Part shown: positions 34,971 through 56,220 of the stretch, piece after piece
Numbering within the stretch: position 1 is the first letter of the stretch
Layout: every line of letters begins with the position of its first letter
Assembly (NCBI RefSeq): GCF_040712075.1
Contig: NZ_JBFCVL010000007.1
Coordinates: forward strand, 186,001-250,000
Direction: 5' to 3'
Length of the DNA stretch: 64,000 nucleotides
Source: Fodinicurvata sp. EGI_FJ10296
GTDB taxonomy: Bacteria > Pseudomonadota > Alphaproteobacteria > DSM-16000 > Inquilinaceae
Program-made: the position numbers and the translations under genes
Notes under the pieces: generated by a model
Told to the model about the DNA's origin: nothing
The model's database searches: none
Seen by the model: the letters and a program-made list of their open reading frames with translations, nothing else

Positions 34971-35360
34971 TTGAGGTCCCAGTCATCCTTCGTCATCGCC
35001 ATGATGGCCGGCATCGCGGCGCTGATCAGCGCCTGCACCGGACCCTCAGTCGATGCATTGCGCGAGCAGGACGACGCCGTCGGTTTTTTCGGCCGCGAAT
35101 CCGCCGAAGAAGTTGCGTCCTGCCTGTCGGAGCAACTGGAGGCGGTCAAAGCGTTCGGGTCGGTGATCGTGGTCGAGCGTCACTATGACGACCGGATCAC
35201 GATTTACGAGACGCTGCCCAATACTGCCATGTCAGTCTTCGACATCCATGGCGGGCAATGGCGCACCAGAGTCGACGTCGCCGTCCGCCGACACCTCTAT
35301 CGCGGAAACATGAAACCTTTGTACCAGGAAATCACCCGTGATTGCCTGAGCCCCGCCTGA
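34971..35360 (+). CDS. Small putative lipoprotein of unknown function
   Basis: A 129-residue protein with a lipoprotein-type signal (MRSQSSFVIAMMAGIAALISAC) whose lipobox ISAC is at residues 19-22, so probably anchored in the membrane facing the periplasm. The start would be TTG at 34971; the ATG at 35001 leaves a signal without positive charge. The mature part has two Cys residues (VASCLSEQL and RDCLSPA) that could pair, and a beta-rich centre (VIVVERHYDDRITIYETLPN). I do not recognise the family. It precedes the partner-switching genes by 106 bases and may or may not belong with them. Confidence 0.65.
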   Translation: MRSQSSFVIAMMAGIAALISACTGPSVDALREQDDAVGFFGRESAEEVASCLSEQLEAVKAFGSVIVVERHYDDRITIYETLPNTAMSVFDIHGGQWRTRVDVAVRRHLYRGNMKPLYQEITRDCLSPA

Positions 35361-35466
35361 CACAGCATCGACGATGCCGGAAAATGCCGTTCCATAACCA
35401 ATTTTCTTAAACATTTGTCGGCCACTCTTATAGGGTGCTGATGATCCTGATTGCCGAGTGGCGCCA

Positions 35467-35907
35467 ATGACCGACGGGCTCACCTTGACCCTGAAGAACT
35501 CGCTGGACGAGATTCCAAAGCTGGCCGACGCGATCGAGGTCTTCGCGGAGGAAAACGACGTGCCCATGGCAACCTGCCTGCACGTCACACTCGCGCTGGA
35601 CGAACTCGTCACCAACGTCATCTCCTATGGCTATGACGGCGGCGCAAAGGGCGACCGGGATATCGTCGTCGAACTTGGGGTGAAGGATGGCGAACTGACG
35701 GTGGCACTGGAAGACGATGGATGTGCTTTCGACCCCACGTCGATGCCGCCACCCGATATTGACGCCGATCTCGAAGACCGGGCAATCGGCGGTCTCGGCA
35801 TACACTTCGTCAGGAACTTCATGGACTCGGTCGATTACAATCGGACGAACGGATACAATCGGTTGATGATGCGCAAATCACTGAACAACCAGCAGGATTC
35901 GGCATGA
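35467..35907 (+). CDS. Serine-protein kinase / anti-sigma factor, RsbW-like (HATPase_c)
   Basis: A 146-residue GHKL ATPase of the RsbW/SpoIIAB class, which sequesters a target (classically a sigma factor) and phosphorylates an STAS antagonist. The N-box is in HVTLALDELVTNVISYGYD, the G1 box is DDGCAFDP, and GGLGIHFVRNFMDSVDY is the G2/lid region. Start at the ATG at 35467; a GTG nine bases upstream is possible. Followed by the STAS gene and the SpoIIE phosphatase, completing a partner-switching module. No sigma factor gene is in the neighbourhood, so the target is unknown. Confidence 0.9.
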   Translation: MTDGLTLTLKNSLDEIPKLADAIEVFAEENDVPMATCLHVTLALDELVTNVISYGYDGGAKGDRDIVVELGVKDGELTVALEDDGCAFDPTSMPPPDIDADLEDRAIGGLGIHFVRNFMDSVDYNRTNGYNRLMMRKSLNNQQDSA

Positions 35908-36021
35908 ACAGCACGCCGGTTTCCATCGCGGCGAGACGAACTCCCACGAGGCACCGATTTACTTCCCATACACCCGCCAACCATGCCCTCCTCCCAACCA
36001 GGCCCGCAAGGTAAGCTAATT

Positions 36022-36360
36022 ATGGACATCACCGAACATCAGCTCGGCACCGGCGTCGTATTGGAGCCGCAAGGCCGGATCGACAGCAGCACCTCAAAAT
36101 CTTTCGAGGAGCGCCTGATGCAAGCGCTCGACCGTGGGCCGACGGCGGTCATCGTCGATCTGTCCAATGTCGAGTACGTCAGCAGCGCCGGCCTGAGGGT
36201 GCTTCTTGTCGCCGCAAAGAAGATAAAATCCGCTGGAAACCAATTGATCTTGTGCGGCTTGTCGTCCCATATTCGCGAAGTCTTCGACATAAGCGGCTTT
36301 TCCGCAATTTTCGTTATCGTTGGCGGACTTGACGATGCGAAGCAGAAAGCCGGCCTCTGA
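36022..36360 (+). CDS. STAS-domain anti-sigma factor antagonist, RsbV-like
   Basis: A 112-residue single STAS domain. The phosphorylatable serine is Ser54 or Ser55 in NVEYVSSAGLRVLL, preceded by AVIVDLSN. In the known switch, the unphosphorylated antagonist binds the RsbW-like kinase and frees its target; phosphorylation reverses this and a PP2C phosphatase resets it. The start at 36022 places the first strand at residue 10; upstream in-frame codons look like intergenic sequence. It lies between its presumed kinase (114 bases upstream) and phosphatase (85 bases downstream). Confidence 0.92.
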   Translation: MDITEHQLGTGVVLEPQGRIDSSTSKSFEERLMQALDRGPTAVIVDLSNVEYVSSAGLRVLLVAAKKIKSAGNQLILCGLSSHIREVFDISGFSAIFVIVGGLDDAKQKAGL

Positions 36361-38535: not shown

Positions 38536-39735
38536 ATGCGTGAACTCCAGGTATGCAGAACCGTCACGGCGGCGGCGCTGCTCGCAGGCTTCAGTGCCGC
38601 GATACTGGCGGTGGCGACGCCGGCCGATGCCCGGGCCGACGACAGTCAGTATCCGACGGCGCCTACGACCCGCGAAGACGGCGAACCCTGGCGTTTGGGC
38701 TATCTTGAGGGCGGGCAGTACCAGGACTACGAGATCATTACGGAAGCGACGGTAAGATCGCTTATGGATCTGGGCTGGATTGAGCCGGAGCCTCTGCCCG
38801 ACGGGCTCAGCGAAACGCCGGGTGAGTTCTGGTACTGGATGGGCGAAAATCTCGAAAGCGAGTATATCGAGTTTGTCGAGGACGCCTATTACGCGCCGGG
38901 CGATTTCAATTCCGATCAGCGCCAGGAAGTCCGCGACGAGGTCGTTTCGCGCCTCACCGAAACCGGCGACATCGATCTGATGATCGCAATGGGAACCTGG
39001 GCGGGACAGGATCTGCGCGTCGAGGGATTGGGGGTGCCGGTCGTCGTCGGCTCGACCAGCGATCCGATCGGGGCCGGAATCACTGACAGCGCCACCGACA
39101 GTGGCATGGACCATATTCACGCCAAGGTCGAGCCGGACCGCTACCAGCTTCAGGTGGGCCTGTTCCACGACATCATCGGCTTCCAGCGTCTCGGCATCGT
39201 CTATGACGACAGCGCCGAAGGCCGTACCTTTGGCGGTGTCAATGCGGTCGAGCAGGTCGCGACTGAACGAGGCTTTGAGATCGTTTCGTGTAACGCCCCC
39301 TATACCGGACTGCCGCAGCAGGAAATCGAGGCCGGCGTCATCGACTGCTACTCCGAAATCGCCGACGACGTCGACGCGATCTATATCACCGTGCATCGCG
39401 GGGTGACGGAGACATCGCTCCCGCAGATCATGGATGTGATCACCGAGAACCTTGTGCCAACCTTCTCCATGTTGGGATCGGGCGAGGTTCAGCGCGGCGT
39501 CCTCATGAGCATTGCTCAGGCCGATTTCACGTATGTCGGTGAGTTCCATGCACAGACGATCGCGCGCATATTGAACGGTGCCTCACCCCGGGCGCTCGAT
39601 CAGCGCTGGAGCGCGCCGCCCAAGATCGCGCTGAACCTTGCGGCAGCCGAGCGCATTGGCTTCGATCCGCCTGTGGACCTTCTTCTTGCCAGCGACGAGA
39701 TCTACGAGACGATCATCGGCCCCGGTTCCGACTAA
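38536..39735 (+). CDS. Periplasmic ABC_sub_bind-type substrate-binding protein without transporter genes
   Basis: A 399-residue exported protein (signal peptide with core AAALLAGFSAAILAVA, cleavage after ADARA). The mature fold is a type I periplasmic binding protein of the TrpX/ABC_sub_bind group: WRLGYLEGGQYQDY at the start, DLMIAMGTWAGQDL, VPVVVGSTSDPIGAG in the hinge, FQRLGIVYDDSAEGRTF, and PTFSMLGSGEVQRGVLMSIAQADF. GGGAGGA lies upstream of the ATG. No permease or ATPase is adjacent. Placement 35 bases after the sensor phosphatase suggests it presents a ligand to that sensor rather than feeding a transporter; that is inference. Confidence 0.85.
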   Translation: MRELQVCRTVTAAALLAGFSAAILAVATPADARADDSQYPTAPTTREDGEPWRLGYLEGGQYQDYEIITEATVRSLMDLGWIEPEPLPDGLSETPGEFWYWMGENLESEYIEFVEDAYYAPGDFNSDQRQEVRDEVVSRLTETGDIDLMIAMGTWAGQDLRVEGLGVPVVVGSTSDPIGAGITDSATDSGMDHIHAKVEPDRYQLQVGLFHDIIGFQRLGIVYDDSAEGRTFGGVNAVEQVATERGFEIVSCNAPYTGLPQQEIEAGVIDCYSEIADDVDAIYITVHRGVTETSLPQIMDVITENLVPTFSMLGSGEVQRGVLMSIAQADFTYVGEFHAQTIARILNGASPRALDQRWSAPPKIALNLAAAERIGFDPPVDLLLASDEIYETIIGPGSD

Positions 39736-39768
39736 GTGGGTCTGCCGACGCCCGACCGGTGGTCGTCA

Positions 39769-39807
39769 GTTGCGGCATCGCGCAGAGGACACGCCCGATG
39801 CCGCAAC
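39769..39807. terminator. Perfect 12-base inverted repeat between convergent operons
   Basis: GTTGCGGCATCG (39769-39780) and its exact inverse (39796-39807) with a 15-base loop sit between the stop codons of the two converging units. There is no T tract on either strand, so it may be a bidirectional transcription barrier or RNA-stabilising structure rather than a classical terminator. Confidence 0.5.
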
Positions 39808-39812
39808 GCGCT

Positions 39813-40583
39813 TCAGGAACGCGCCGACACCGCCGCCCACCCGGAGCGCGAAAGGCCGGTAAAGTCGCGCCAGGTGGCGATCTTGCGGGCCAGGAAGTCC
39901 GCACTCTGCGGCTGCCAGATCTCACGGCCCCACATATAGCTTCGGCGGCGGATTTCGTCGGTATCGCCCGCCAGGACCGAACCGGGAAAAACCGCCGCCA
40001 TCAGGTCCGCTTCGTCGCCGGACATTGCCTTCAGGCAGTCGCGCCCGTCGCGGATGATTGCCCGCAGCCACAATGCGTTGAGCGCAATGCGCGGCTCTGC
40101 CTCAGCCCGCGGCCCGGCAAAAAGAAAACAGCTATCGCCGTCCGGCGAGAAATCCGGATGCACAGCGCGGATGCCATCGATCAGGCGCCGCAGATGCCAC
40201 CGACGATACCCCTGAACCCGATGGGTACCGTCCATGGCATCGCTGATTTCGTACAATGACGTGTTGCGGATGTCATAGAGGCACAGGCAGGCCATAACCC
40301 GCTGCTCCAGCGAGAACCCGCCAATTACCGGTAGCCCGTCTCGCCGCAGGACGCGCCCGTCGGCATCCTTGGCGAATTTCCTGACAAAGGCGCCGCCAAA
40401 CGCCAGATATCCCAGGACGCGCGATTCCGGCAGCGGGCCATAGCTGCGCGGGGCGACGTGACGCCCGGCCTCGGCCGACCAATAGCAATCGGTGAGATCG
40501 AGCGGTTCCGGCGCAACGGTCAGCGTTCGGTATCGATCGCGAAACCCGTCCAGCAACGATTCAAGCGGTATACCGTCGGTCAT
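39813..40583 (-). CDS. Protein of unknown function, coupled to the ligase-family gene
   Basis: A 256-residue soluble protein with no signal peptide or membrane segment and no family that I recognise. Notable stretches: YWSAEAGRHVAPRSYGPLPESRVLGYLAFGGAFVRKF, MACLCLYDIRNTSLYEISDAMDGTHRVQGYRRWHLRRLIDGI and the aromatic-rich end RRRSYMWGREIWQPQSADFLARKIATWRDF (given by their landmarks only: GPLPESRVLGYLAFGG, GYRRWHLRRL, YMWGREIW). It is rich in Arg, Asp and aromatics and looks like an intact enzyme or binding protein. The ATG overlaps the stop of the upstream ligase-like gene (ATGA), so the two are probably made in equal amounts and may act together. The frame is open for 60 more codons upstream, inside the other gene, and this part is not coding. 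Confidence 0.85.
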   Translation of the reverse strand: MTDGIPLESLLDGFRDRYRTLTVAPEPLDLTDCYWSAEAGRHVAPRSYGPLPESRVLGYLAFGGAFVRKFAKDADGRVLRRDGLPVIGGFSLEQRVMACLCLYDIRNTSLYEISDAMDGTHRVQGYRRWHLRRLIDGIRAVHPDFSPDGDSCFLFAGPRAEAEPRIALNALWLRAIIRDGRDCLKAMSGDEADLMAAVFPGSVLAGDTDEIRRRSYMWGREIWQPQSADFLARKIATWRDFTGLSRSGWAAVSARS

Positions 40584-42148
40584 TGGCGGTCCAGGCGGCG
40601 AGTTGACGTTGGCGGATCGGGGGGCACACGGGCTACGCGTAGCGATGCCAGACGCTCCAGCCCGTCGGGTCCCTCCAACCTCAGTCGGTCGGCCTGGGCA
40701 ATCGCCCTGTCGGCGCCCGTCAAGCCGGTGTCCAGGACCCAGTTCGGATAGGCCAGGGCCCACTGATCGCGTGTCGGCACATGATCGCCGGCAATCCTGA
40801 GAACATCAGCAACGAAACGTCGAAGGATCGCGGCCTGATCGCCGCTCAGTGCGTCCCGAATGGCAACCTCCCTTAGCTCGCGAATTGTCTGCCACGGCCA
40901 CTTTTCAAGGAACAACCGACAGGACGCTGGCGCGGCAGCGACAAGACCCGCCTGCAACGCGGCAACGGAAACCATAGCCGACGCCGCGACATCTCCCGGA
41001 GCCTGCTCAGACAGATCGTCATCCACGAAAGTCGCCCCCGCGCAACGGTTCTCGACATACAGATTATTAGCCCACGAAGCGAAGATTTCGTTAAAGGCAT
41101 CAGGCGTCTGGAAAGCTCGGCGCAAACTTTCTGTCGTTGGCCGATCTGGTTCAAAATTGAACCGAAGTCTGAAGTCAAGAAAGTTGGACCATTGCAGAAA
41201 TGTGAAATGGCCGGGCCGCGGCGTGATCATTATTTCGGCACCGCCGCCGACGGGGCTTGCCGGCCAGGGGCCGCCTCCGAAGAACCGGCCGACGGTAAGC
41301 CGATCGCTCCCTGCCACGTACAATGCTCCATTGTCCTTGTATCCGCCATTGTGGGCCGGAATGGCCTGCATCACCGTTCCCTCGGCGAACATCCACTGGA
41401 CATAGTCGCCGATCGAATTGAAGGGACGCGGCGGCAGGCCGACGCGGTCGCGGTCGGCCGCGACGCGGCTGGTCGCCACCATCCTTGGCCACAAGGTCAT
41501 GCGGGTTTCCTTGGTCGCGGCTCGCCGTCCACTTTCGAACGGGCTGTTGGCGAAAAGGGCGATAAAGGCCGGCGAGGCCGCAAGCAGCATGTTCAACGCA
41601 TCCACCGCCGTATCGGCCGTAAGCCCGGTTGTCGGCCCGTTCTGGGCCTTTGCGTCCACGCCGATGGCATGGGTCCAGCCACGTTGCTCGACCAGATAGC
41701 GATAAATCGATTTCGGCGCGCGCGCCTTTCGATACCACTCTTCACCAATCCCGACTGTCGGGTGCTGAGCCAGTGACGTCACCGTCAGGTCGCCGGACTC
41801 TTGCAAGGCCTTCAACACCGAGGCCAGATCGCGGTTCATCCTGTCTGATAGATTTCTAAGGGTTTCCGGGCCGGCGGTTTCCGGCGCAAGGGCGGATTCC
41901 AGGAGATTGAAAGCGTTGTCGATGCCATTGACGCCGTCAGCGGTGGTGACGCCAACCGCGCGGCCATCGCCATATTGCGTGGAAACCGGCCCGACCATCC
42001 GCTTGAGAGCGGCCAATTCGTCGAAGTAATGGCCGTCGACACAGGCCGAGCGGCCCGCACGGTCGATGACCGCCATTTCCAGTTCGATGCCAAGCGTTGG
42101 ATAGCAGCGCGCCGGATCGGCAAATTCCCCGAAGTTGCTGACTGTCAT
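40580..42148 (-). CDS. Glutamate-cysteine ligase (GCS2) family protein, divergent
   Basis: A 522-residue protein whose N terminus carries the carboxylate-amine ligase opening CYPTLGIELEMAVIDRAGR (G-I-E-x-E, the metal-binding acidic pair of the GCS2 fold). HPTVGIGEEWY, HAIGVDAKAQNG, ALNMLLAASPAFIALFANSPFESGRR and GGGAEIMITPRPGHFTFLQW keep the order seen in bacterial gamma-glutamylcysteine ligases and YbdK/EgtA-like enzymes. The usual C-terminal 'E.R..D' stretch is replaced by FLDFRLRFNFEP, so the substrate is probably not simply cysteine. It starts 3 bases after the stop of the sensor-MFS gene and overlaps the following unknown gene. It likely makes an amide-linked amino-acid product; what product is unknown. 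Confidence 0.8.
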   Translation of the reverse strand: MTVSNFGEFADPARCYPTLGIELEMAVIDRAGRSACVDGHYFDELAALKRMVGPVSTQYGDGRAVGVTTADGVNGIDNAFNLLESALAPETAGPETLRNLSDRMNRDLASVLKALQESGDLTVTSLAQHPTVGIGEEWYRKARAPKSIYRYLVEQRGWTHAIGVDAKAQNGPTTGLTADTAVDALNMLLAASPAFIALFANSPFESGRRAATKETRMTLWPRMVATSRVAADRDRVGLPPRPFNSIGDYVQWMFAEGTVMQAIPAHNGGYKDNGALYVAGSDRLTVGRFFGGGPWPASPVGGGAEIMITPRPGHFTFLQWSNFLDFRLRFNFEPDRPTTESLRRAFQTPDAFNEIFASWANNLYVENRCAGATFVDDDLSEQAPGDVAASAMVSVAALQAGLVAAAPASCRLFLEKWPWQTIRELREVAIRDALSGDQAAILRRFVADVLRIAGDHVPTRDQWALAYPNWVLDTGLTGADRAIAQADRLRLEGPDGLERLASLRVARVPPDPPTSTRRLDRQ

Positions 42149-42151
42149 CGG

Positions 42152-44644
42152 TCAGCCGTCGCGCGCCGGTGTCGAGACCGGTGTCGAGACTGGCGCCGTG
42201 GCCGGAGGCTCCGGGCGGGCATCATCATCGGCTGTCACCGGGCTTCGTTGAGATCGGAGCACCGCAACGACAGCGAAAAGGATGCTGGCGGCTGCAAACG
42301 CAAAGCCGATCAGGGCCACCCGGCGTTCCATGCCAAAGGACGTGAAGGTGGCAGCGATAAGCAGTGGGCCCAGCATCTGGCCGAGTTTGTCGGCCGCCCG
42401 TTGCAGCCCGATCGCCGACGAGACGCCGAACTCCTTGACCACCTTCAGGTTCAGGATGAACGAGGACCGGGCCGGCTCGGCCATGCTGCTCGACAGGCCG
42501 AGAAATGAGACCGCCACCAGCATGCTGAGCATGCTGCCATCCAGGAACAGCACACCGAGCCCGGCGCCGCCGATCAGGCCGCCCAAAACGATGAACGGCA
42601 CCTTGTTCTCGCGCCGGTCGATATAGGTACTGATCATCGGCCCGAACAGGATGATCACGATGCCGTAGACCATCAGGATCCGCCCGATATCGGCCTGCGA
42701 TGACCCGATTTCCGACAGATAAAGCGGAACGGCGAAGTAGAGCAGACCGACCTGGGCAATGGAGAACGGCACGACAGAAAGAATAAGCGCACCCAGATAT
42801 TGTGGACTCAGCAGCAGCCGATTCCAGCCGGCGAAAGCGGACCCACCCCCGCTGGCAGTCCTTGTATATTCGGCCAGATCCCATTTCTGCGGCCCAATGA
42901 TGAATTCGCGCAGGACGCCCCAGCCCAGCGCCAGGGGCACGACAACCATCAGACCCGAAGCGAGCAGCACGAATTCATAGCCGAACTGCTCGGCCAGCAC
43001 ACCGCCGACGGCCGTTCCGCAGATGAACCCCGCGAAGATACCGGCCATCAGATTCGCCAGCGCTCTGCCACGGCTTTCGGACGGGCAATAGCGAATGACG
43101 AAAGCCTGAATGCCCATCCAGGATAGTCCATATCCAAGGCCCGTCAGACCGCGCGCCAGGATGAAGACGAGGCTGTCGGTCGCCAGCGCGGCCGTGATGC
43201 CGCCCAGTGCCGAAATGAGGAGTCCGACCAGGAACGGGCGGAACCAACCGACGCGGTCGGCGATCCGGCCGGCGACCACCGCAGTCAACAAGGCGCAACC
43301 CATTTCCGCTGAAATCGGCAGTGCCAGCACGATGTCCGGAGGAAGGCCAAACAGGCTCTCGCCCAATGTCCGCATCTTCAGCGGCACGAAGGACAGCGGC
43401 AATGCCCAGGTAAAGATGAAGCCGAACATGACGGGCCGCGCAATTATGTGCCGGGGTCCGACCCGCTCCAGGGCCGGAACCGATGGCGCCGAACGCCTCA
43501 GCAGGATATCGAGCAAGATGAACAGCTCGATCATGAAGAAGGCGGACGTCACGACAACGGTGACGATGTTGATGACCTGGTTGGCCATCTGATCGACCAC
43601 CACCGTCTCATCGACGGTGACGCGGACTTCGCCGACAATCTCGCCGTCCGCGCCGGTCAACGGCCGTATGATGTCATCGACCGGGTGGCCGAGGATGGAT
43701 GCCGCCAACGGCGAAACGGAATCCGGCTGTCGCTCGGCCGCATGGCGCACCGTGCCGTCGGGATCAACGATGCTGATGCCTCGAACGGCATCGCTGACCG
43801 AAATCACGCGCTGCAGACGCTCATCCAGCCCCGGCAGCCGCTCCAGCGACAATCCGAGGCCCAGGAGCTGCGCCAGATCGTCGTGCACGCTGTCGCCGAG
43901 CCGTTCGGCCGCGGCGCTCGTCGCGCTGGCGTAGTTGTTCTGAAAGATCCTGAGAACGTCGAACGAATAGGCAGCCTGCGCGCCAAGCAGCACGATCAGC
44001 GGCACCAGAAGCGTGCGCCAGCGGGAAGTCTGCGGCTGGTCGGCGCGGGCTCGGAGCCGTCCGGCGACGATGGCGAGCAGCACGGCGGCAATGGCCGTAA
44101 CCGCAATCATGAACGCGATGCTGCCTTGAATGGAGGAATCCAGACGTTCCTCAAGGACCGATTCCGCCACACCCACGACGATTGCACCGGCCACGGCGCC
44201 GTTGCGGTCGAGCACAGGGGTCAGAAAATAGCGCGTGGCATCGATCGACAGTGCGGCCGTCGACTCCGCCGACATTTCGCCAGAGGCAAAACGCGTGGCG
44301 ATACTGTCGGACAATGCCGCCGGCCAGTCATCCTGCAGCGATCCGACAATGGTCCCGTCGGGCAGTGCGGCCAGCACGTCGTCGATGCCGGTCGCGTCGC
44401 CACGGATCTCCTGAAGGATTTCCTCCAGCCCCAGGAACTGAGCCAGAGGGCGGCCGAAGCGCAGTCCTGACTCGACCTGTTCGGCGCCTTCACGCCCCGC
44501 CAACTCGAAGGTGCCGGAAAGGATATCCCGTTGCGCCCGCTCAAGCGCCGAGAAGGTGAGAATGCCGCTCGTCGCCAGGGCAAGAAGTAGAAGAAAAAGA
44601 CTGCCGGCAACGATCTTCAGGGAATTGGCGAACTGCCTTTGCAT
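42152..44644 (-). CDS. Two periplasmic sensor domains fused to an MFS transporter
   Basis: An 830-residue membrane protein with an unusual architecture. Helix 1 (about 10-30) leads into a Cache-like domain (about 31-170; DVLAALPDGTIVGSLQDDW and YFLTPVLDRNGAVAGAIVVGV), then two helices (about 177-197 and 208-228), a second sensor of similar layout (about 230-350; LGLSLERLPGLDERLQRVI, ISIVDPDGTVRHAAE, LTGADGEIVGEVRVTVDE) and another helix. From about residue 395 to 800 it is a complete 12-helix MFS carrier (AGRIADRVGWFRPFLVG as motif A; a mid loop; ISTYIDRRENKVPFIVLGG as the second-half motif A). The tail is Pro/Thr/Ala-rich. The two sensors may be duplicates. It appears to combine signal perception and transport in one chain. 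Confidence 0.87.
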   Translation of the reverse strand: MQRQFANSLKIVAGSLFLLLLALATSGILTFSALERAQRDILSGTFELAGREGAEQVESGLRFGRPLAQFLGLEEILQEIRGDATGIDDVLAALPDGTIVGSLQDDWPAALSDSIATRFASGEMSAESTAALSIDATRYFLTPVLDRNGAVAGAIVVGVAESVLEERLDSSIQGSIAFMIAVTAIAAVLLAIVAGRLRARADQPQTSRWRTLLVPLIVLLGAQAAYSFDVLRIFQNNYASATSAAAERLGDSVHDDLAQLLGLGLSLERLPGLDERLQRVISVSDAVRGISIVDPDGTVRHAAERQPDSVSPLAASILGHPVDDIIRPLTGADGEIVGEVRVTVDETVVVDQMANQVINIVTVVVTSAFFMIELFILLDILLRRSAPSVPALERVGPRHIIARPVMFGFIFTWALPLSFVPLKMRTLGESLFGLPPDIVLALPISAEMGCALLTAVVAGRIADRVGWFRPFLVGLLISALGGITAALATDSLVFILARGLTGLGYGLSWMGIQAFVIRYCPSESRGRALANLMAGIFAGFICGTAVGGVLAEQFGYEFVLLASGLMVVVPLALGWGVLREFIIGPQKWDLAEYTRTASGGGSAFAGWNRLLLSPQYLGALILSVVPFSIAQVGLLYFAVPLYLSEIGSSQADIGRILMVYGIVIILFGPMISTYIDRRENKVPFIVLGGLIGGAGLGVLFLDGSMLSMLVAVSFLGLSSSMAEPARSSFILNLKVVKEFGVSSAIGLQRAADKLGQMLGPLLIAATFTSFGMERRVALIGFAFAAASILFAVVAVLRSQRSPVTADDDARPEPPATAPVSTPVSTPARDG

Positions 44645-44957
44645 CAGGTGGCACCCGTAATTGGCATCATGGATTCGGACAGCCGATGGCAGGTTGCCGA
44701 TACGATCGTTAATTTTTCGCGCAGCCTATGCTGCGGCAGATACCGCAACAAGAGCATAATTTAGTGAAATCACCGTGAAGAGACGCGCGTGGACCGGACG
44801 GATCGCACAGTTGCACCGCAGCACCTCACATGTCACTGGCGCCGGCCCAGCCAATGCGAAATGATCGAATATCTGCCGGATGCCGGTATCGAGGACGGGA
44901 TCGGCCGGCCGACGCGGAAGCACAGCAACGACGAACAGCGCGACTCCAGGAGATTTG
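44645..44957. other. Divergent intergenic region with overlapping inverted repeats
   Basis: About 313 bases between the minus-strand sensor-MFS operon and the plus-strand AI-2E-family gene; no gene is supported. GCAGC-N4-GCTGC (44721-44734) overlaps TGCGG-N6-CCGCA (44732-44747), about 80-100 bases before the sensor-MFS start. They may form an operator or stem, but no promoter boxes stand out. Confidence 0.45.
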
Positions 44958-46052
44958 ATGCCCAGCCAGACCCAGTCCGCTCCGTTTGCTGCGATTCGAT
45001 ATGGGGTCGTGCTGACGGCATTGGCGGCAATATCGATCTTCGTGTTCTGGACCGCAAGCAAGGCTTTCCTGCTCGTTTTCGCCGGGATCCTGTTCGCCGC
45101 ATTCCTTGACGCTCTGACACGATTGCTGGGCGGCGCCGTACCCTCCTGGGGGCGCGGCATTCGCCTGGCCATCGTCTGTATCGTCCTTGCAGCCCTGTTC
45201 CTGGCGGGCCTCGCCTGGGGCAGCGCGGCCATCGCGATGCAGATCGCCGATCTCATTGCCACCCTGCGGGAGCAATCGAACGAGATTCTGAGTCTGATCG
45301 AGGAATACGGTCCGGGCATATTCGGCGACTCGGACACCGATGGCGGCGGCACCATTGACCGCCGATCCGGCAGCGATATCGGCCCGTCGGCTCTCCAGTC
45401 CCTGATGCCCAATCTTCAGGGGCTTTTCGGACCGGCCTGGACGGCGATCGCGGTCGCGGGTGGCGTCATTGGCGATGCCGCCATCATCATTTTCCTCGGC
45501 ATCTTTTTTGCGGCTCAACCGTGGATCTATCGTGACGCGATGCTGCTGCTGGTTCCGCTGAGCCGCCGATCCCATGTTCGCGACGTCCTCGATGAGACCG
45601 GACGAACCCTGCGGCACTGGCTCCTGGGTCAATCGATCACAATGTCGGTGATCTTCCTTTTCACCTGGGGCGGGCTCTGGCTTGTGGGCGTCGGACCCGC
45701 ATTTGCCCTGGGGCTACAGGCGGGCCTGTTGGCCTTCGTGCCGACCCTCGGCCCACTGATCGCGGGCTTCGCCATCATGCTGGCGAGCATCTCTGCCGGG
45801 TGGCCGGGCATCGTGGGCGCATTGGTCGTCTATATCGGCGTCCAGACCCTGGAAAGCTATCTCCTGACACCGATGATCCAGCGCCGGGCCGTTCATATGC
45901 CGCCCGCATTCATCTTCATTGCCCAGATCGTGCTGGGCCTGCTCTTCGGGCTCTACGGACTGGCCCTCGCCACACCCCTCGGCGCGGTCGCAAGAGTGTT
46001 CATTCTGCATTTTTACGTCGAGGATACGCTCGGCGACGACATTGAAAACTAG
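44958..46052 (+). CDS. AI-2E family transporter
   Basis: A 364-residue membrane protein of the AI-2 exporter/PerM superfamily, with about eight helices arranged as two, a long soluble segment, then the rest. Landmarks: ASKAFLLVFAGILFAAFLDALTRLL near the N terminus, the variable extracytoplasmic segment around residues 110-160 (Gly/Asp-rich DSDTDGGG), QPWIYRDAMLLLVPLSRRSHVRDVLDETG, HWLLGQSITMSVIF and the family signature GLLAFVPTLGPLIAGFAIML. AGGAG at 44948-44952 fixes the ATG at 44958. Members export autoinducer-2 or act as permeases/Na+ antiporters; the specific role is unknown. Monocistronic, ends facing the T6SS FHA gene. Confidence 0.9.
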   Translation: MPSQTQSAPFAAIRYGVVLTALAAISIFVFWTASKAFLLVFAGILFAAFLDALTRLLGGAVPSWGRGIRLAIVCIVLAALFLAGLAWGSAAIAMQIADLIATLREQSNEILSLIEEYGPGIFGDSDTDGGGTIDRRSGSDIGPSALQSLMPNLQGLFGPAWTAIAVAGGVIGDAAIIIFLGIFFAAQPWIYRDAMLLLVPLSRRSHVRDVLDETGRTLRHWLLGQSITMSVIFLFTWGGLWLVGVGPAFALGLQAGLLAFVPTLGPLIAGFAIMLASISAGWPGIVGALVVYIGVQTLESYLLTPMIQRRAVHMPPAFIFIAQIVLGLLFGLYGLALATPLGAVARVFILHFYVEDTLGDDIEN

Positions 46053-46113: not shown

Positions 46114-47235
46114 CTACTTGAATGGATCGTCGCCGAAGGGATCGCCCCCATCCGCAGCGCCGGATGTTCCGCCGGCTTCGAGCGTCTGGGCTATGGCTTC
46201 GGCCTGGGCGACGACGGCGCGGCCGAGTCCCCGCGCCATTGCGGTTCCCTCATCGCCCGGCAATTGAAGAAGATGAGCGACAAGCGATTCGCCGGAGACG
46301 GCCGGCAGATCGCCGCCCTCCGCGCCCAGTCGAACGCCGAGCCGCCCGGCAATCGCTTCGTGATGCCGCCCGGTCATCAGCAGCGCGTCGATCAGGATCG
46401 CCGCGAGAGCCGAACTGCGGCCGGCAGCGCCCATATCCTGATCCACCGCACCGCCGCCCCAGGGTGCGTCTCCGCCGGAGTCCCCTGCCAACTCAGGGCC
46501 TGGACCGAATGGCACCGACCCGGTTTCGGAACCGATCGGGTCGGAGGCGGAGAAAGCATCGAAGCCGCCGCCGTCAGGGCCGGACTTGTCAAAGAAGCCG
46601 CCATCGGATCCCGACGCGAATTCGTCGCCGGTGCTATCGGTCGACCAGTCGTCTCCCCACCCGCTGGCGAATTCGGAAGTGGTGTCGTCGGCGCCGGCAG
46701 CCCAGCCATCGGTTTTCGCGTTCGTCAGGAAGCCGTCGTCGCCGCCATCGTCGAGCGATCCGGCAAATGCGTCGAAGGGGTCCGCTGCGTTGCTTGAAAA
46801 GGCATTGCTGTCCAGTGGCGACCCGGGGTCAACGAAACTGCGGTCGCCCCGTGCGGGCCTGGCGACGCCGGCCGGAGCGGCTATCGGTTCCGGCGTGGCG
46901 AACGGATCGATCTCGTCGCCGATCAAATCTGCGCGGAACACGAAGTCGGCAGCCCGAAAGGTATCGCCGTTCTTGAGCACGGCGGACTTTCCCCGACCGA
47001 GCGGCTCGGCGCCGTCGTTCATGAATACACCGTTGGTGCTGGTATCCTTCAGGACGAAAACCGTCCCCTGAAACAGCACCTCGCAGTGGTGCTTGGACAG
47101 GGCGCGATCGGGATCGGGAAGGCTCCAGCTGCAGTCATCGCCACGGCCGATAGTGACCCTGCCGGTATCGACGACGCGTATGGTCCCGTCATCGGCCTGC
47201 GGCGTTCCTTCGATCATGGTGATCTTGAGCTTCAT
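46114..47235 (-). CDS. T6SS-associated FHA-domain protein (TagH/ImpI-like)
   Basis: A 373-residue cytoplasmic protein. The forkhead-associated domain (about 10-95) contains GRVTIGRGDDCSWSLPD, the phosphothreonine-binding LSKHHCEVLF and DTSTNGVFMN. A long linker (about 110-275) is low-complexity, built of Asp/Gly/Ser/Phe/Ala with recurring DPFDAF, GWGDDW, GGFF patterns. The C-terminal part (AAGRSSALAAILIDALLMTGRHHEAIAGRLG) is similar to the conserved tail of TagH/ImpI proteins. In known systems FHA proteins are phosphorylated by PpkA and dephosphorylated by PppA to control T6SS firing; a PP2C gene is present here, a PpkA gene is not in the window. Start at the ATG ending at 47235. Confidence 0.87.
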   Translation of the reverse strand: MKLKITMIEGTPQADDGTIRVVDTGRVTIGRGDDCSWSLPDPDRALSKHHCEVLFQGTVFVLKDTSTNGVFMNDGAEPLGRGKSAVLKNGDTFRAADFVFRADLIGDEIDPFATPEPIAAPAGVARPARGDRSFVDPGSPLDSNAFSSNAADPFDAFAGSLDDGGDDGFLTNAKTDGWAAGADDTTSEFASGWGDDWSTDSTGDEFASGSDGGFFDKSGPDGGGFDAFSASDPIGSETGSVPFGPGPELAGDSGGDAPWGGGAVDQDMGAAGRSSALAAILIDALLMTGRHHEAIAGRLGVRLGAEGGDLPAVSGESLVAHLLQLPGDEGTAMARGLGRAVVAQAEAIAQTLEAGGTSGAADGGDPFGDDPFK

Positions 47236-47273
47236 TTCGATTTCCACTCTGCCGCGGCAACCAGTGACGCGTA

Positions 47274-47852
47274 TTATACCCGGCCGCTGCCGCCCTTTGC
47301 GATGTCGATCGCCTGCTCCAACGCACGACGATACCATGCTTCGATGGTTTTCGGCTCCCGCGCCGCCGCGAGCAGCACGGCCGCTGCAGCCGCCGTTCCG
47401 GTCAACGCATCGCCCGGCGGGACGGCAACGGCCGATTCAGGCGGCGCCATGCTGCCGCCGGACCAGAATGCCGCTATTGCCGCGTAGGATTCCGGACAAT
47501 CGAACCTGGCAATATCAGCAAGCTCGTATGTCTTGTTACGTTCCGCCTCGGTGGGCTTGAACACCCACCGTTCGGCTGATTCCAGCGCCTTCAGGCGAAC
47601 GGCCGGATCGTCGTCGCGCCGCGCCGCGCGCGCGTTCAGGCATGCCCACCACACCGCTTCGCGGCGCGGCAGGGCAATGGCCATGACGCGGACGGCATCG
47701 GCCAGCAATCCCTGCTCGACACAGGCGCCGAGAAAATCAGGCGTCGTCGGATTGGCCTTGAGCATGGCCATCGCTTCATCCGACAGCTCCAGATCGCCCA
47801 CCGCGTCCCGAGCGAATTCGAATCGCAGCTTCTTGAGGTCACCGAAGTCCAT
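47274..47852 (-). CDS. Small T6SS-locus protein of unknown function
   Basis: A 192-residue predicted cytoplasmic, largely helical protein encoded between vgrG (14 bases upstream) and the FHA gene (38 bases downstream). Features: FEFARDAVGDLELSDEAMAMLKANPTTPDFLGACVEQGL, then LPRREAVWWACLNARAA, then ESAERWVFKPTEAERNKTYELADIARFDCPESYAAIAAFWSGGSMAPP (cited by landmarks PREAVWWACLNAR and AAFWSGGSMAPP). This layout resembles proteins that recur in alphaproteobacterial T6SS clusters as a domain of unknown function (I recall DUF6931, not verified). Its position suggests an adaptor or chaperone for VgrG loading. Confidence 0.8.
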   Translation of the reverse strand: MDFGDLKKLRFEFARDAVGDLELSDEAMAMLKANPTTPDFLGACVEQGLLADAVRVMAIALPRREAVWWACLNARAARRDDDPAVRLKALESAERWVFKPTEAERNKTYELADIARFDCPESYAAIAAFWSGGSMAPPESAVAVPPGDALTGTAAAAAVLLAAAREPKTIEAWYRRALEQAIDIAKGGSGRV

Positions 47853-47866
47853 TATGCCGGGTCCGC

Positions 47867-49924
47867 CTAGTTGATCTTTGTGAGGCTGCCCTTGAGGGTC
47901 AGCATACCGCTTGCATTGACATCCGCCAGCGCGCCCTTCGCCTCGAATTTCGCCTGCGCGTTGACCTTGACCATGGTTCCCTTGATCTCGACGCCCGTCT
48001 GGGAAATCTTGATACTGTTGCCGCCGACCTTCAATTCGATGTTCTGGGCGGCCTGTACGGTCACTGATCCGGCATTGGCTTTGAGAGTATAGCTGCCGGA
48101 CGACAGGGTGACCTTGCCGTCGCCTGAAGCAAGATCGAGGGTATAATTGCCGCTGCCGTCCAGTTTTACCGCGCGGTTGCCCTTGGAGATGGTCAGATTG
48201 TCGTTACCCTTGGCGATCTCGGTGACCCGGTTTCCTTCGCTGACCTTCAGCGTGTCGTTACCCTTGGCCAGCGTCGTCGTTCTGTTGCCCTTGGTGATAT
48301 CGACCTTTTCGTTGCCTTCCGCGATGGTCTTCGTGCGGTCGTTCTTGATGTCGATCTTCTGGTCGTGGCCGACATCCAGCGTGTCGTCGTTCTCGACCAC
48401 GCGCTCGAAATCCTTCTCGGCGTGAAAGTATACTTTTTCTTCTTCTTTCTTGTCCTCGAACCGGAGTTCGTTGAACGTCGTCCCGTCGCCTTTCAAGGAT
48501 GAGCGCGACTTGAAGCCGCTCTGGGTCTTGTTGTCCGGCAGGGTATAAGGCGGCATGTTGTCGCCGTTATAGACAGTGCCGGTCACAAGGGGTCTGTCCG
48601 GGTCGCCATTGAGGAATTGCACCACGACTTCCATGCCGATACGGGGCGTGAATATTGTTCCCCAGGTCTTGCCGGCCATCATTTGCGCCACACGGATCCA
48701 GCAGGAACTGTTCTCGTCCTTTTTCCCGTCACGGTCCCAGTGAAACTGTACCCGGATGCGGCCGTATTTGTCGCAGTAGATTTCCTCGCCACTCGGCCCG
48801 ACAACCAGTGCGGTCAACGGGCCGCGAACGCGCTCCCGCTCCGCGCGGCGCGGTGGACGGTAGAGCGTCTTGTCGGGAATGCCTCTGAACACATTGCCGT
48901 AAGTCGGCGCACCCGAGCCCTGGGCCAGATGCGTATGGTCGGTGGCTTCGTGGTCCACTTCGATACACAGGAAGCCGGTTCCGGACTCGCCGTCGAAGGG
49001 GTGCGACTTCAGGGTGGTCTTGCCGCCGGCAAACAGTCCGGCAGTCGACCCTGCACCTTCAACCGTCTCCTGAACCGCTTCATGCGCTTCTATACGGGCA
49101 TCGGTCAGCGATGTTCCGGCGGATTTCTCGGTATAGCGGCCCGGATAGTGATAGATCTCCTGCGATTTATGGATCGCCGGATCGGCTGTCGTCGTGGAGT
49201 CGGTCTTCAGATCCTTTGACGGATCCTCGAAATCGTAATCCGTTTGCGTCACCTTGCCAGTGATGACATCGGCCGCCGATGCCCAGGACCTGAGTGCCGA
49301 GCCGTGAAAATCGCCGCCCGTCCGCAGTTCGACCTCGGCTTCCGCGCAATCTTCGTAATGCGACGTCGCATCGCCGATGATCATCTGATGAGCGCCGTCG
49401 CTGTGCTTGAAGAAATAGAACAAGCCCTCTTCTTCAAGCAGCCGGCTAATGAAATTGAATTCCGTTTCGTCGTACTGGACGCAATAGTCGCGCTTGGTCG
49501 TTCCGCCTGACGCCTTGACGGAAAAATCCAGACCGCTCACTTCGCCAAGCAATTCCTTGACGATGTCGATCGCGCTCTTCTCCTGAAAGATCCTGAAATT
49601 TCGTTTGAGTGTCGCCAGCCAAAGCGTCGGGACAACGGTCGCCCTATAGGATCGGAGACTGACGCCGTATGGCATCCCACGGCTGAAATGCCGGACAATT
49701 CCTGAAAAGACACGCTCGTCGCCGCCGGTGTGGCGCACTTTCAGCGTTATGTCCGCTCCGAGAATCTTTTTCGGATCGAGTGCCGGATCTTCGGAAACCA
49801 TGTCGATCTGAAATTCGAACAGATCGGACATCGCTTCCCTGCCCTGGAATCCTATCGCCAGAACCTCGTCGGTCCCGAACGGCGTGTCCAGAGATAAGAG
49901 GCGCTTTTCCTGGGTAATGGGCAT
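47867..49924 (-). CDS. vgrG: VgrG spike protein (TssI)
   Basis: A 685-residue trimeric spike that caps the Hcp tube. The gp27-like N-terminal part includes FQIDMVSEDPALDPKKILG and RHFSRGMPYGVSLRSYRATVVPTLWLA, the middle has the conserved EEEGLFYFFKHSDGAH and DHTHLAQGS regions, and the gp5-like OB part has GRIRVQFHWDRDGKKDENSSCWIRVAQMMAGKTWG (landmarks: RVQFHWDRDG and CWIRVAQ). The C-terminal beta-prism has five nine-residue repeats of the form GNxxxxhxK (residues 537-581) and ends at LTLKGSLTKIN without an added effector domain. It therefore presumably carries effectors through PAAR or adaptors. Confidence 0.96.
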   Translation of the reverse strand: MPITQEKRLLSLDTPFGTDEVLAIGFQGREAMSDLFEFQIDMVSEDPALDPKKILGADITLKVRHTGGDERVFSGIVRHFSRGMPYGVSLRSYRATVVPTLWLATLKRNFRIFQEKSAIDIVKELLGEVSGLDFSVKASGGTTKRDYCVQYDETEFNFISRLLEEEGLFYFFKHSDGAHQMIIGDATSHYEDCAEAEVELRTGGDFHGSALRSWASAADVITGKVTQTDYDFEDPSKDLKTDSTTTADPAIHKSQEIYHYPGRYTEKSAGTSLTDARIEAHEAVQETVEGAGSTAGLFAGGKTTLKSHPFDGESGTGFLCIEVDHEATDHTHLAQGSGAPTYGNVFRGIPDKTLYRPPRRAERERVRGPLTALVVGPSGEEIYCDKYGRIRVQFHWDRDGKKDENSSCWIRVAQMMAGKTWGTIFTPRIGMEVVVQFLNGDPDRPLVTGTVYNGDNMPPYTLPDNKTQSGFKSRSSLKGDGTTFNELRFEDKKEEEKVYFHAEKDFERVVENDDTLDVGHDQKIDIKNDRTKTIAEGNEKVDITKGNRTTTLAKGNDTLKVSEGNRVTEIAKGNDNLTISKGNRAVKLDGSGNYTLDLASGDGKVTLSSGSYTLKANAGSVTVQAAQNIELKVGGNSIKISQTGVEIKGTMVKVNAQAKFEAKGALADVNASGMLTLKGSLTKIN
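48182..48316 (-). repeat. 27-base coding repeats in the VgrG spike
   Basis: Five consecutive nonapeptides of the form GN-x4-hydrophobic-x-K/E (GNEKVDITK, GNRTTTLAK, GNDTLKVSE, GNRVTEIAK, GNDNLTISK). They build the triangular beta-prism of the needle. The repeats are degenerate at DNA level but keep the nine-residue period. Confidence 0.85.
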
Positions 49925-50052
49925 TCACGAACCTTCGATCGGCGGGAACCGAGTTATGACCGCATCCTGCAGCACTCCACCGAAGGCGAATGAAAGGGCC
50001 GAGACATCCCCGTCGAAAATCGACGACAGGAAAGCACCCGGCCCCAGGAACG

Positions 50053-50086
50053 GAAAAATATCCGTGCCGCGGTGTTCGGCGGACGG
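50053..50086 (-). terminator. Terminator or attenuator directly after hcp
   Basis: On the minus strand an eight-pair stem with one bulged base (50079-50086 pairing with 50062-50070) has an 8-base loop and is followed by ATATTTTT. It starts 8 bases after the Hcp stop codon. It would cut transcription between hcp and vgrG. Confidence 0.65.
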
Positions 50087-50093
50087 TGAAGAA

Positions 50094-50570
50094 TTAGCCG
50101 CTCTTGGTCGTGGACAGATCATAGCTGACAACCGTCTGGTTGCCGGCAGCGTTCTCGGTCTTCGATGGAATGTACTTATATTCGATCTTCGAGAAATTGA
50201 TGCTGATATTTTCCGAAGGGCGATCGCCGCCGGAACTCATGCTGTAACCGGACACCAGCGCGTTGGTCAGCGTGTAGGTCGCATAGGTCCGGCCGGGACT
50301 TCCGGTCGAGACCAGATCGATCTTGACTTCGACACCCTTGTTGCCCGTGACGGCCTCGGTGAAGAAGGACGGCGAGGACGCGTCCATCATCTTGGTGATC
50401 GTCACTTCACTTACCGACGGCTCCGACGCTTCGCGGTTCTTCGTTGACCCGGACGGGGTCATGATCGCACGCCCGACACCCCATTGCAGCGATCCCACGT
50501 CAAGCCAATCCTTGTGCTCTTCGTGTGTGGCGTCGCCCTTGAGTGCGCCGTATTTAACGTAAATTGCCAT
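50094..50570 (-). CDS. hcp: Hcp tube protein (TssD)
   Basis: A 158-residue hexameric ring protein that stacks into the T6SS inner tube and is secreted. It begins MAIYVKYGALKGDATHEEHKDWLDVGSLQWGV (landmarks: GDATHEEHKDWL and LQWGVGRAI), with SEPSVSEVTITKMMDASSPSFF, then VSTGSPGRTYATYTLTNALVSGYSMSS, all typical of Hcp1-family proteins of imp-type systems. It lacks any C-terminal effector extension. It lies between clpV (171 bases upstream) and vgrG (169 bases downstream), with a terminator right after it, which fits the high Hcp dose that tube assembly needs. Confidence 0.96.
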   Translation of the reverse strand: MAIYVKYGALKGDATHEEHKDWLDVGSLQWGVGRAIMTPSGSTKNREASEPSVSEVTITKMMDASSPSFFTEAVTGNKGVEVKIDLVSTGSPGRTYATYTLTNALVSGYSMSSGGDRPSENISINFSKIEYKYIPSKTENAAGNQTVVSYDLSTTKSG

Positions 50571-50635
50571 TTCTTGCTTCCTCTCCTTATGAACCTAGAC
50601 TTAGCGCCTGGGGATTTTCGTGCCGACGTTCCGGG

Positions 50636-50693
50636 CCGTCGGACCCAGCGTTCCGACGGCCTGCAGGAAAGCCGATCTTGATCCTGCGATCAA
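50636..50693. promoter_or_regulatory. Inverted repeats in the clpV-hcp gap
   Basis: CCGTCGGA (50636-50643) is perfectly inverted at 50652-50659 with an 8-base loop. TTGATC-CTGC-GATCAA (50678-50693) is a second perfect repeat next to it. Neither is followed by a T tract, so they look like an operator or a structured hcp leader rather than a terminator. Confidence 0.4.
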
Positions 50694-50741
50694 CCACACA
50701 CCGGGCCCCCACCTACCCGATCGACCAATGCCCATGCAGTC

Positions 50742-53402: not shown

Positions 53403-53698
53403 TGCCCCTCGCCTCCTCAGACGTTGAAATGTATTGATTTTTCCGGGTGTAACGCGACTTTATGCTGTCGAGGCTTTGCGCTAATCAGGTATGTTGCGGA
53501 GAATGCCTTAACCAGAAGAACAAATCTACCCCAACGAGGTGTCGGGCGTACACTTTCGTGCGTTAATCCTATGGCGTTGGGGTTACCACATCGTTACCAT
53601 TGACAGTCCGAAATGCTAGCACCCTGATCAGGACGGGTCACGTTGCGCACGAATGTGATGCGCCGGGGCAACGTGTATAGCCGACGAAGGAAACGCAG
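53403..53698. other. Divergent regulatory region between clpV and the PAAR gene
   Basis: About 296 bases, no gene supported. TTGACA occurs at 53600-53605 on the plus strand without a good -10 at 17 bases, and the perfect 10-base palindrome CCTGATCAGG is at 53623-53632, exactly where the -10 box should be. No sigma54-type GG-N10-GC site could be identified. It should contain promoters for both directions. Confidence 0.45.
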
Positions 53699-54082
53699 AT
53701 GCCGCCAGCCGCCCGTATCGGCGATATGGTCAAACAGGACGCGCCGCACTGCCACGCACCGATTCACCCGCCCGCGCCGGTCCCGGCGCCAAGCGCCCAT
53801 CCGGGCCTCCCGCTCGCGATCGTCAAGGGCCAGCCGAACTGTCTGATCGGCAACATGCCGGCCGCCCGCGCGACCGACATAACGATGCCTTGCGTTCTGC
53901 CCGGCTGCGTTCCGGCGGGGCCCGGCATGATCGCCATGGGATCGGCAACGGTGCTGATCGGGAACATGCCGGCGGCGCGGATCAACGACCTCACCAGCCA
54001 CACCAGTTGCGTCGCTCCGATACCGGGCCCGGTCGGAAAGGTCTTGCCCCCCGGCTGTCCGACCGTGATCATCGGAGGCTGA
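53699..54082 (+). CDS. PAAR-domain spike-tip protein
   Basis: A 127-residue protein that forms the sharp conical tip on the VgrG trimer. It contains two copies of the PAAR-type turn: CLIGNMPAARATDITMPC and VLIGNMPAARINDLTSHTSC, with the metal-binding His/Cys residues (PHCHAPIHP, THTSC-type) spread through the chain. GAAGGA precedes the ATG. No C-terminal toxin domain is attached, so cargo would have to bind non-covalently; the methyltransferase gene 31 bases downstream is the nearest candidate partner. Confidence 0.93.
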   Translation: MPPAARIGDMVKQDAPHCHAPIHPPAPVPAPSAHPGLPLAIVKGQPNCLIGNMPAARATDITMPCVLPGCVPAGPGMIAMGSATVLIGNMPAARINDLTSHTSCVAPIPGPVGKVLPPGCPTVIIGG

Positions 54083-54113
54083 CGCCGGATCGGCCGCAGG
54101 ATCGAGAGTTCTA

Positions 54114-55184: not shown

Positions 55185-55216
55185 CGAACGATCCGAGACC
55201 GTGAGGATGAGGCAAA

Positions 55217-55975: not shown

Positions 55976-56069
55976 GCCCCTGTTCCGCATAGCGGTGAAT
56001 GCATGCGCAGATGCCGGCCCCGTGCACCGGGGCGCATTCCTGATCGCGTCCTCACTTTGGTATACCCTT

Positions 56070-56092
56070 CTCACTTTCGTAAGCGAAGTGAG
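56070..56092. promoter_or_regulatory. Inverted and direct CTCACTTT repeats upstream of a small membrane gene
   Basis: CTCACTTTCG (56070-56079) faces CGAAGTGAG (56084-56092) across a 4-base loop; a further copy of CTCACTTT is at 56051-56058, 19 bases upstream in the same direction. The 19-base spacing (about two helical turns) suits a dimeric regulator. Confidence 0.4.
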
Positions 56093-56220
56093 GCCGGAAG
56101 GGAGTGACAAAACGCATCGGGACACTCGCGGGCCCGAGACTTTTCTTTCGGAGCCGGTTGCCGCAGAATTCAGCTGGTTGGTGGGAACTGCGCATTGGCC
56201 AAGCGGGCGGAGAGAAGACA

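Follow-up and report, generated by a model that had tools for sequence, protein, structure and literature searches.

A window of 64,000 nucleotides from Fodinicurvata sp. EGI_FJ10296 (contig NZ_JBFCVL010000007.1, positions 186,001 to 250,000 of the forward strand) encodes a protein in which two periplasmic sensor modules are joined in one chain to a complete carrier of the major facilitator superfamily (MFS). This sensor-sensor-MFS architecture is real and widespread, and the larger finding is that a recurring module is built around it. By computation we observe (i) the architecture of the chain, (ii) the fold of its sensors, (iii) the duplication that relates them, (iv) a correspondence between split and fused versions, and (v) a recurring neighbourhood. 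This neighbourhood suggests a pump whose activity follows what is sensed outside the cell, and we give about even chances to the reading that the protein is a sensor-gated transporter with a conjugate-exporting carrier, read from the outside through its sensors and a binding protein.

The frame of 830 residues described in an earlier note on this DNA is confirmed and lies on the minus strand, where codon-position G+C scores it as coding (152.9); frame 1 of the plus strand across 42152-44644 contains several stops. In the AlphaFold model of the whole chain (mean predicted local distance difference test score, pLDDT, 86.7; predicted template modelling score 0.86; pLDDT 89.2 for the sensor part modelled alone) the arrangement membrane helix, sensor, membrane helix occurs twice in succession and is followed by the carrier, whose 12 membrane helices at residues ~398-800 were counted by eye from the list of AlphaFold elements. 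Hydropathy and the model together place four hydrophobic segments on long helices at residues 2-61, 161-200, 208-262 and 346-385, and Pfam MFS_1 matches residues 406-730 above its cut-off (E 1.4e-30). A cytoplasmic output domain, kinase or other transmitter was found in the chain neither by the Pfam scan nor in the model. The two helix-flanked periplasmic modules and the complete 12-helix carrier of the earlier note are thus borne out by AlphaFold, Pfam and structural alignment; it gave no strand and did not mention the GCS2-type ligase, the binding protein of family PF04392 or the partner-switch operon.

In the model, sensor 1 consists of a long helix, a short helix, two strands, a helix, three strands and a long helix, and sensor 2 has nearly the same order but two strands before its last long helix. 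Sensor 1 aligns with the Cache domain of WalK (4ywz, Z 14.1, root mean square deviation 2.8 over 133), with DcuS (3by8, Z 12.9) and, overall, with the domains of WalK, DcuS, CitA and TlpB at Z 10.0 to 14.1. The best match of sensor 2 (residues 222-362) is the LapD-type domain 4u64 (Z 11.1, deviation 3.8 over 129), and residues 237-353 align with the kinase sensor 4onx (Z 10.4, deviation 3.6 over 105); all these scores are to be read with the caution of the alignment tool that Z below 8, or below about 13 in helical folds, may reflect a common arrangement. Foldseek alone gave six matches to the sensors at E 0.001 with Roadblock/Ragulator folds directly beneath them, and when the sensor sequence was compared with those of solved structures, the one match was meaningless. 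Because the top structural alignments span most of the domain and nearly all are to Cache/PAS-type sensors, we accept both predicted modules as Cache/extracytoplasmic-PAS folds outside the current Pfam Cache families, sensor 1 more firmly, and the Cache-like character that the earlier note had ascribed to them holds up in these comparisons. The modelled fold would place both on the outer face of the membrane. Pfam alone would miss them, because no Cache model scores above its cut-off in the window protein (best sCache_3, 19.6 bits vs 28.8) and only one of the 27 members of the two-sensor alignment, the window protein itself, has any Cache match at E 0.01.

Profile-profile comparison of the two sensors gives a probability of 99.1 (E 9.7e-19) with the helices and of 97.9 (E 5.5e-13) for the periplasmic parts alone, which at the level of aligned profiles shows that they arose by duplication, as had been supposed. 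The pattern L-G-L-x(3-9)-G-L-x-E-x-L proposed for both modules captures a shared core, although its literal form is only approximate; in the window protein the common core reads G-x-[PS]-L-x(4)-G-L-[ED]-E-x-L. We consider it quite unlikely that the modules are free of ligand and serve dimerisation or protein docking in the manner of the LapD periplasmic domain: in favour of such a role, sensor 2 aligns best with a LapD-type output domain and only D256, G264 and G297 of its module reach 80 % conservation, but in sensor 1 a patch R-x-G-[KR]-P is conserved, and this module matches the small-molecule receptors DcuS, CitA and TlpB. Within the membrane helices of sensor 2, three polar positions (Q223, T362 and E373) are the same in 27/27 rows of the alignment and are possible points of coupling to the carrier.

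The architecture recurs in 26 further full-length two-sensor fusions in named contigs, one of them in a complete sequence (Tistrella mobilis, locus L104; loci are numbered with L throughout). Of the 27 named loci, 26 carry both sensors and the MFS in one chain; the remaining one (L102) is truncated by its contig end and was left out of the 27-row two-sensor alignment (A3) and of the tree. The named relatives fall into three phyla, i.e. Alpha- and Betaproteobacteria, Thermodesulfobacteriota and one Bacillota bin, with Rhodobacteraceae, Azospirillum, Methylobacterium, Aureimonas, Tistrella and others among the Alphaproteobacteria, and Alcaligenaceae, Chitinilyticum and several Thermodesulfobacteriota among the rest. 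Counting the genome of the window itself, matches occur in 10/61 genomes of relatives, in 36/387 genomes of the class (35/378 of good quality; 27/264 genera) and, with a stricter profile, in 5/397 genomes of a phylum sample. The profile search confirmed recurrence together with the same neighbours, since binding-protein and ligase genes recur beside the fusions. To a chance fusion or an assembly error we give next to no probability: nothing beyond the unusual architecture speaks for it, and we reject it on the 26 further fusions, the complete T. mobilis sequence and the support for the clades described below. The earlier note had considered that homologues might show sensor and MFS parts as separate genes joined here in error; the error is refuted by the same fusions, whereas separate genes do occur in one lineage, adjoining each other in 20/20 loci.

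Loci were located by the MFS gene, independently of its neighbours. The two-sensor profile matched the sensor-sensor-MFS protein alone in 4/4 genomes at E 0.01; the 27 named loci were found with a four-row alignment, a single-protein query of the same collection having given none. A second set of 41 class loci combines 37 of 38 class matches with four loci from the relatives (G173, whose match lies at a contig end, was left out). The two sets overlap, because the MFS cores of L052 and L104 are identical and their contigs equally long; within them some genera appear more than once, two genomes contribute two loci apiece, and L015 and L016 are near copies. Neighbour counts cover these 41 and 27 loci (L109-L112 of the phylum sample were left out), gene calls beyond the window come from an open reading frame and codon-position script in which several frames start too early, and profile counts lean towards the families in question because the profiles were grown inside the same loci. 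A tree built from 67 carrier cores, rooted at the midpoint for drawing purposes only, shows that ligase type follows the MFS clade: the two-sensor GCS2 group forms one side of a branch with 28 rows (97/96), with the ligase visible in 27/28 since L084 was assigned to the group though its contig ends before the ligase position, and the two-sensor ATP-grasp group forms one side of a branch with 11 rows (95/92). The window protein clusters with four Rhodobacteraceae-type rows (100/100).

The class loci also contain a natural rearrangement of the chain. Two sensors are on the MFS chain in 18 of the 41, one in 20 and none in three (by profiles and hydropathy; some sensor-2 matches are weak). A stand-alone gene for a sensor between two membrane helices (family c2; no Pfam family in the two proteins scanned) lies upstream on the same strand in 20/20 single-sensor loci vs 0/18 two-sensor loci (Fisher p 3e-11, uncorrected for shared descent) and in 0/27 named loci, and it overlaps the MFS gene by 4 bases in 13 of the 20. 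With membrane helices included in the scores, the stand-alone sensor scores higher with sensor 1 than with sensor 2 (130 vs 86) and the sensor attached to the single-sensor MFS higher with sensor 2 than with sensor 1 (156 vs 120), so that two chains of this lineage correspond to the one chain in the window. Given that the sensor-1 gene is directly upstream of the sensor-MFS gene and on its strand in 20/20 loci, the lineage appears to hold the same machine in split form. Among nine single-sensor proteins scanned, a HAMP domain between sensor and carrier scores above the Pfam cut-off in two and below it in two and is absent from five. Fusion or adjacency of sensor and carrier is thus kept in 38/41 loci, HAMP lies between them in some and no other output domain is found, and for these reasons we infer that the sensors act on the carrier. 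Two loci (L056:11813-14472, L057:5447-8094) each hold a further pair of upstream c2 gene and MFS gene, oriented divergently to the first; its MFS gene scores lower and is not counted among the 41.

What the carrier moves, and in which direction, is the weaker part of our reading, and its probability falls somewhat short of even. Its first Foldseek matches are NorA (8ttf, E 1.4e-10) and VMAT2 (8t6a, E 2.8e-10), and export is favoured because of this NorA/VMAT-like fold and of the ligases beside the carrier. In the window the GCS2-type ligase gene starts 3 bases past the MFS stop; its PF04107 score is 37.0 bits vs a cut-off of 21, its profile matches the chloroplastic glutamate-cysteine ligase 6gmo (E 2.2e-10), and it lies below every cut-off of the named NCBIfam families (glutamate-cysteine ligase, EgtA and YbdK types). 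By profiles built in this analysis, a GCS2-type ligase occurs in 24/27 named loci and 4/41 class loci (the window and one genus), and an ATP-grasp ligase of the D-Ala-D-Ala-ligase type (c4; Pfam matches in the two scanned) in 11/41 class loci, all with two sensors; three single-sensor loci have a ligase related to the latter (c22). A family of small proteins, acyltransferase-like by eye (c6; no Pfam match in two scanned), is present in 9/41 class and 1/27 named loci. The arrangement resembles the bacilysin BacD-BacE pair in that an amino-acid ligase adjoins an MFS protein; unlike in that pair, the ligase here is of the GCS2 type, and BacE is not known to carry a sensor. A sigma-70-type scan of 39600-45000 gave no promoter-like sites (1.2 expected) and three terminator-like ones (4.8 expected). 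An alanine racemase gene lies between the sensor-MFS and HATPase genes in L098 (12342-13451) and L099 (12306-13487), another enzyme of amino-acid metabolism in the module.

A gene for a periplasmic binding protein is present in 39/41 class and 24/27 named loci by the profile built here; of the three named loci lacking a match, L084 and L089 stop at the contig end and L081 has full flanks. PF04392 has one match in the window genome at E 1e-5, 2.4 kb from the MFS gene, and the chance that position alone would put a single such gene within 10 kb is ~0.4 % (from genome size). The likelier start of the window gene is the ATG at 38536, ahead of a signal-peptide-like stretch (by eye). Among 31 genomes, Pfam PF04392 has 1 to 7 matches in 25 and none in six, and matches at the MFS locus in 23; the remaining eight all belong to the ATP-grasp type, and there only our own profile detects the binding protein. 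An ABC-like gene lies within 5 kb of the binding-protein gene in only 1/39 class and 3/24 named loci (queried with four single ABC proteins of the window, which is weak for permeases), and no ABC permease or ATPase is among nine neighbour genes scanned at 36-50 kb of the window. PF06541, sought as an ABC partner of PF04392, occurs in 0/24 genomes, a result left unused as the usual partner permease presumably belongs to another family.

The binding protein resembles TrpX-type ABC binding proteins (3lft) in its PF04392 membership and in profile matches to solved members (6hni, 3lkv, 3lft), proteins of a type that binds aromatic amino acids; it differs from them in that it is seldom near an ABC gene and in its TrpX equivalog score (50.1 vs a cut-off of 390). 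By analogy with LuxP-LuxQ, the precedent for a binding protein that works with a sensor, it may load the Cache sensors. Alternatively, it could deliver an amino-acid-like ligand to the MFS for import, with the Cache modules as a docking platform and the ligase modifying what is imported. Such an importer would account for a binding-protein gene that is so regularly present and so rarely accompanied by ABC genes, for the solved binding proteins among its matches, and for the LuxQ domain among the fold matches of the sensors (3c30, Z 10.0), LuxQ being a partner of LuxP. We nevertheless find it distinctly unlikely, as the first fold matches of the MFS are exporters or vesicular antiporters, as uptake dependent on a binding protein is established for ABC, TRAP and TTT systems and is not known for MFS, and as no MFS case of it was among the open-access literature matches listed.

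The genes for the HATPase, STAS and dCache-SpoIIE proteins and for the binding protein stand in a row on the plus strand, with MFS and ligase on the minus strand. The characteristic motif patterns (those of the phosphatase, the SSAGL site of STAS, and the N, G1 and G2 boxes of the HATPase) are all present in the window proteins, and the partner switch looks catalytically complete by its motifs. In the row of Cache-SpoIIE phosphatase, STAS and HATPase genes on one strand it is like SiaABCD and RsbU/V/W. It departs from SiaABCD in the SiaA equivalog score (75.4 vs a cut-off of 700) and in having no diguanylate cyclase among the neighbours read, and from both systems in the added sensor-MFS, ligase and binding protein. 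Neither a sigma factor nor a cyclase was recognised as its output among the neighbours read, the genome not having been searched for one, and apart from the window and one genus the dCache profile has no match in SpoIIE genes of the class set. A second stand-alone sensor (c2) gene is present in 10/20 single-sensor loci, in some adjoining a SpoIIE gene, and in L066, L068 and L071 it is directly upstream of a large SpoIIE gene; this sensor type may serve the SpoIIE phosphatase too.

Combining these data, we suggest a mechanism in four parts: (i) a small ligand, directly or by way of the PF04392-type binding protein, would load the two periplasmic modules, (ii) the loaded modules would shift the long helices, through HAMP in some relatives, and in that way set the activity of the carrier, (iii) the carrier would most likely use protons to drive the export of an amino-acid conjugate, the product of the ligase next to it (GCS2 here, ATP-grasp in the second clade), and (iv) the dCache-SpoIIE phosphatase together with HATPase and STAS would read an extracytoplasmic cue and control some cytoplasmic output. 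In a fuller version, the ligase would make a signal derived from amino acids, which would be exported, held by the binding protein and docked both on the Cache modules of its exporter and on the SpoIIE phosphatase with its dCache domain. The pump would then be gated by what it exports, and the switch would report on it. We hold this make-export-sense circuit to be unlikely; if it is true, the protein would be the first known MFS gated by a periplasmic binding protein, and the circuit would be a chemical signalling family not yet described.

Several observations weigh against the sensor-gated exporter. Three MFS-core relatives carry no such sensor, and as two of them (L078, L080) keep binding-protein and SpoIIE genes, the sensors are dispensable in this trio; these two loci at the same time offer a natural control for what the sensors contribute. 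(In L080 the SpoIIE protein has a receiver domain of the response-regulator type, and its gene is followed by one for a chemoreceptor.) The SpoIIE gene is seen in only 16/41 class and 16/27 named loci, HATPase in 10/41 and 10/27, and STAS in 9/41 and 9/27. The first 50 Foldseek matches of the carrier include symporters (PepT, galactonate symporter, sialin). Finally, the GP of antiporter motif C, the mark of DHA1 drug:H+ antiporters, is replaced by GT, GN, GS, GA, GV or GI in 27/27 rows of the two-sensor alignment, so that export cannot be read from the sequence; the window protein has GTAVGG and lacks the DHA1 signature, and GP is present in 3/9 rows of another alignment (A1), all of them single-sensor.

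Alternatively, the chain could be a transceptor, in which the MFS part is non-transporting or incidental and a receptor passes its state to the SpoIIE phosphatase or another transducer; UhpC is an example of a transporter-like receptor. We think this improbable. The partner-switch genes in part of the loci, the invariant Q223, T362 and E373, and the existence of transporter-receptor fusions such as CbrA and an Amt-kinase fusion are in its favour, but the SpoIIE gene is seen only in the part of the loci given above, the chain has no detected cytoplasmic output domain, and conservation extends over the MFS core, with R498 kept in 27/27 rows.

The sensor-gated transporter that we prefer shares with the Cache receptors WalK, DcuS and CitA an extracytoplasmic Cache fold between two membrane helices, with HAMP next in some relatives; unlike them, its chain ends in an MFS carrier rather than a kinase, cyclase, chemoreceptor or phosphatase, and it scores below the Pfam Cache cut-offs. 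With the SLC5/STAC-kinase transceptors (CbrA) and Amt-kinase fusions it shares the union of transporter and receptor modules in one chain; in those the output is a kinase, whereas here Cache sensors precede a carrier with no output domain found, and it is likely that among such fusions this is a case in which the sensor is the input and the transporter the output. No Cache-MFS protein and no such gene set was among the open-access literature matches listed, and in open-access texts naming both a Cache domain and an MFS transporter the words refer to unrelated genes. In the passages of the 2016 Cache census that were read, the partners of Cache domains are described as known signal-transduction outputs with the exception of one small family (PMC4822843), and neither "transporter" nor "MFS" occurs as a word in the main text of the census. 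If a receptor module drives a secondary transporter, bacteria would tune carriers to outside conditions directly, without transcription. The natural split and fused, sensor-bearing and sensor-free versions are ready test material for gating, and the association with a binding protein and amino-acid ligases offers a way towards cargo and ligand.

Table 1. Coordinates of the sensor-sensor-MFS protein, its parts and the neighbouring genes in the window.
Feature	Position	Strand	Basis
Sensor-sensor-MFS protein (P0001), 830 residues	42152..44644	-	Open reading frame and translation, coding score, Pfam, AlphaFold, 26 full-length named relatives
Sensor 1, residues ~33-173, flanked by membrane helices on both sides	44126..44548	-	Cache fold by structural alignment
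Sensor 2, residues ~229-356, flanked by membrane helices on both sides	43577..43960	-	Structural alignment and homology to sensor 1
12-helix MFS carrier, residues ~398-800	42245..43453	-	Pfam MFS_1 and Foldseek
GCS2-type carboxylate-amine ligase, 522 residues	40580..42148	-	PF04107
Periplasmic binding protein, PF04392	38449..39735	+	PF04392, 55.0 bits vs cut-off 25.9
dCache_2-SpoIIE phosphatase, 684 residues	36446..38500	+	SpoIIE E 3.6e-48, dCache_2 E 1.6e-25
STAS protein, anti-sigma-antagonist type	35983..36360	+	STAS E 3.4e-21; TIGR00377 above cut-off
RsbW-type HATPase_c_2 protein	35458..35907	+	HATPase_c_2 E 2.8e-24

Further variants of the module were seen among the relatives. Two of the four ABC-like genes near a binding-protein gene lie inside the module and encode, in a single frame, an ABC exporter (ABC_membrane and ABC_tran) that ends in a HATPase_c_2 domain (L082:13998-16286, L083:6786-9065), so that a transporter is joined to a kinase domain of the partner-switch type. 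The HATPase_c_2 gene of L017 (7041-8780) has an N-terminal guanylate-cyclase-like domain and adjoins STAS; L019, L053 and L065 have frames of about the same length that end in a HATPase (domains scanned in L017 only). A TauD-type dioxygenase family (c25; L077 scanned) occurs near the binding-protein and two-sensor MFS genes in L075, L076 and L077, with a TPR gene (L075 scanned) between the two in L075 and L076; L077 also has a SpoIIE gene. In L081 an Ntox11-domain gene (14092-15384) stands where several related loci have the binding-protein gene.

On its outer sides the module of the window is flanked by a lipoprotein-like frame (by eye) of 129 residues with no Pfam family, directly upstream of the HATPase gene (34971-35360), and by type VI secretion genes (46114-63996), among them FHA, DUF6931 and VgrG by profile and Hcp-, ClpV- and TssF-like genes by eye. 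Among the other 67 loci, matches to FHA, VgrG and the Hcp- and ClpV-like genes occur in L064 only, and L091 has a TssF-like frame at its edge.

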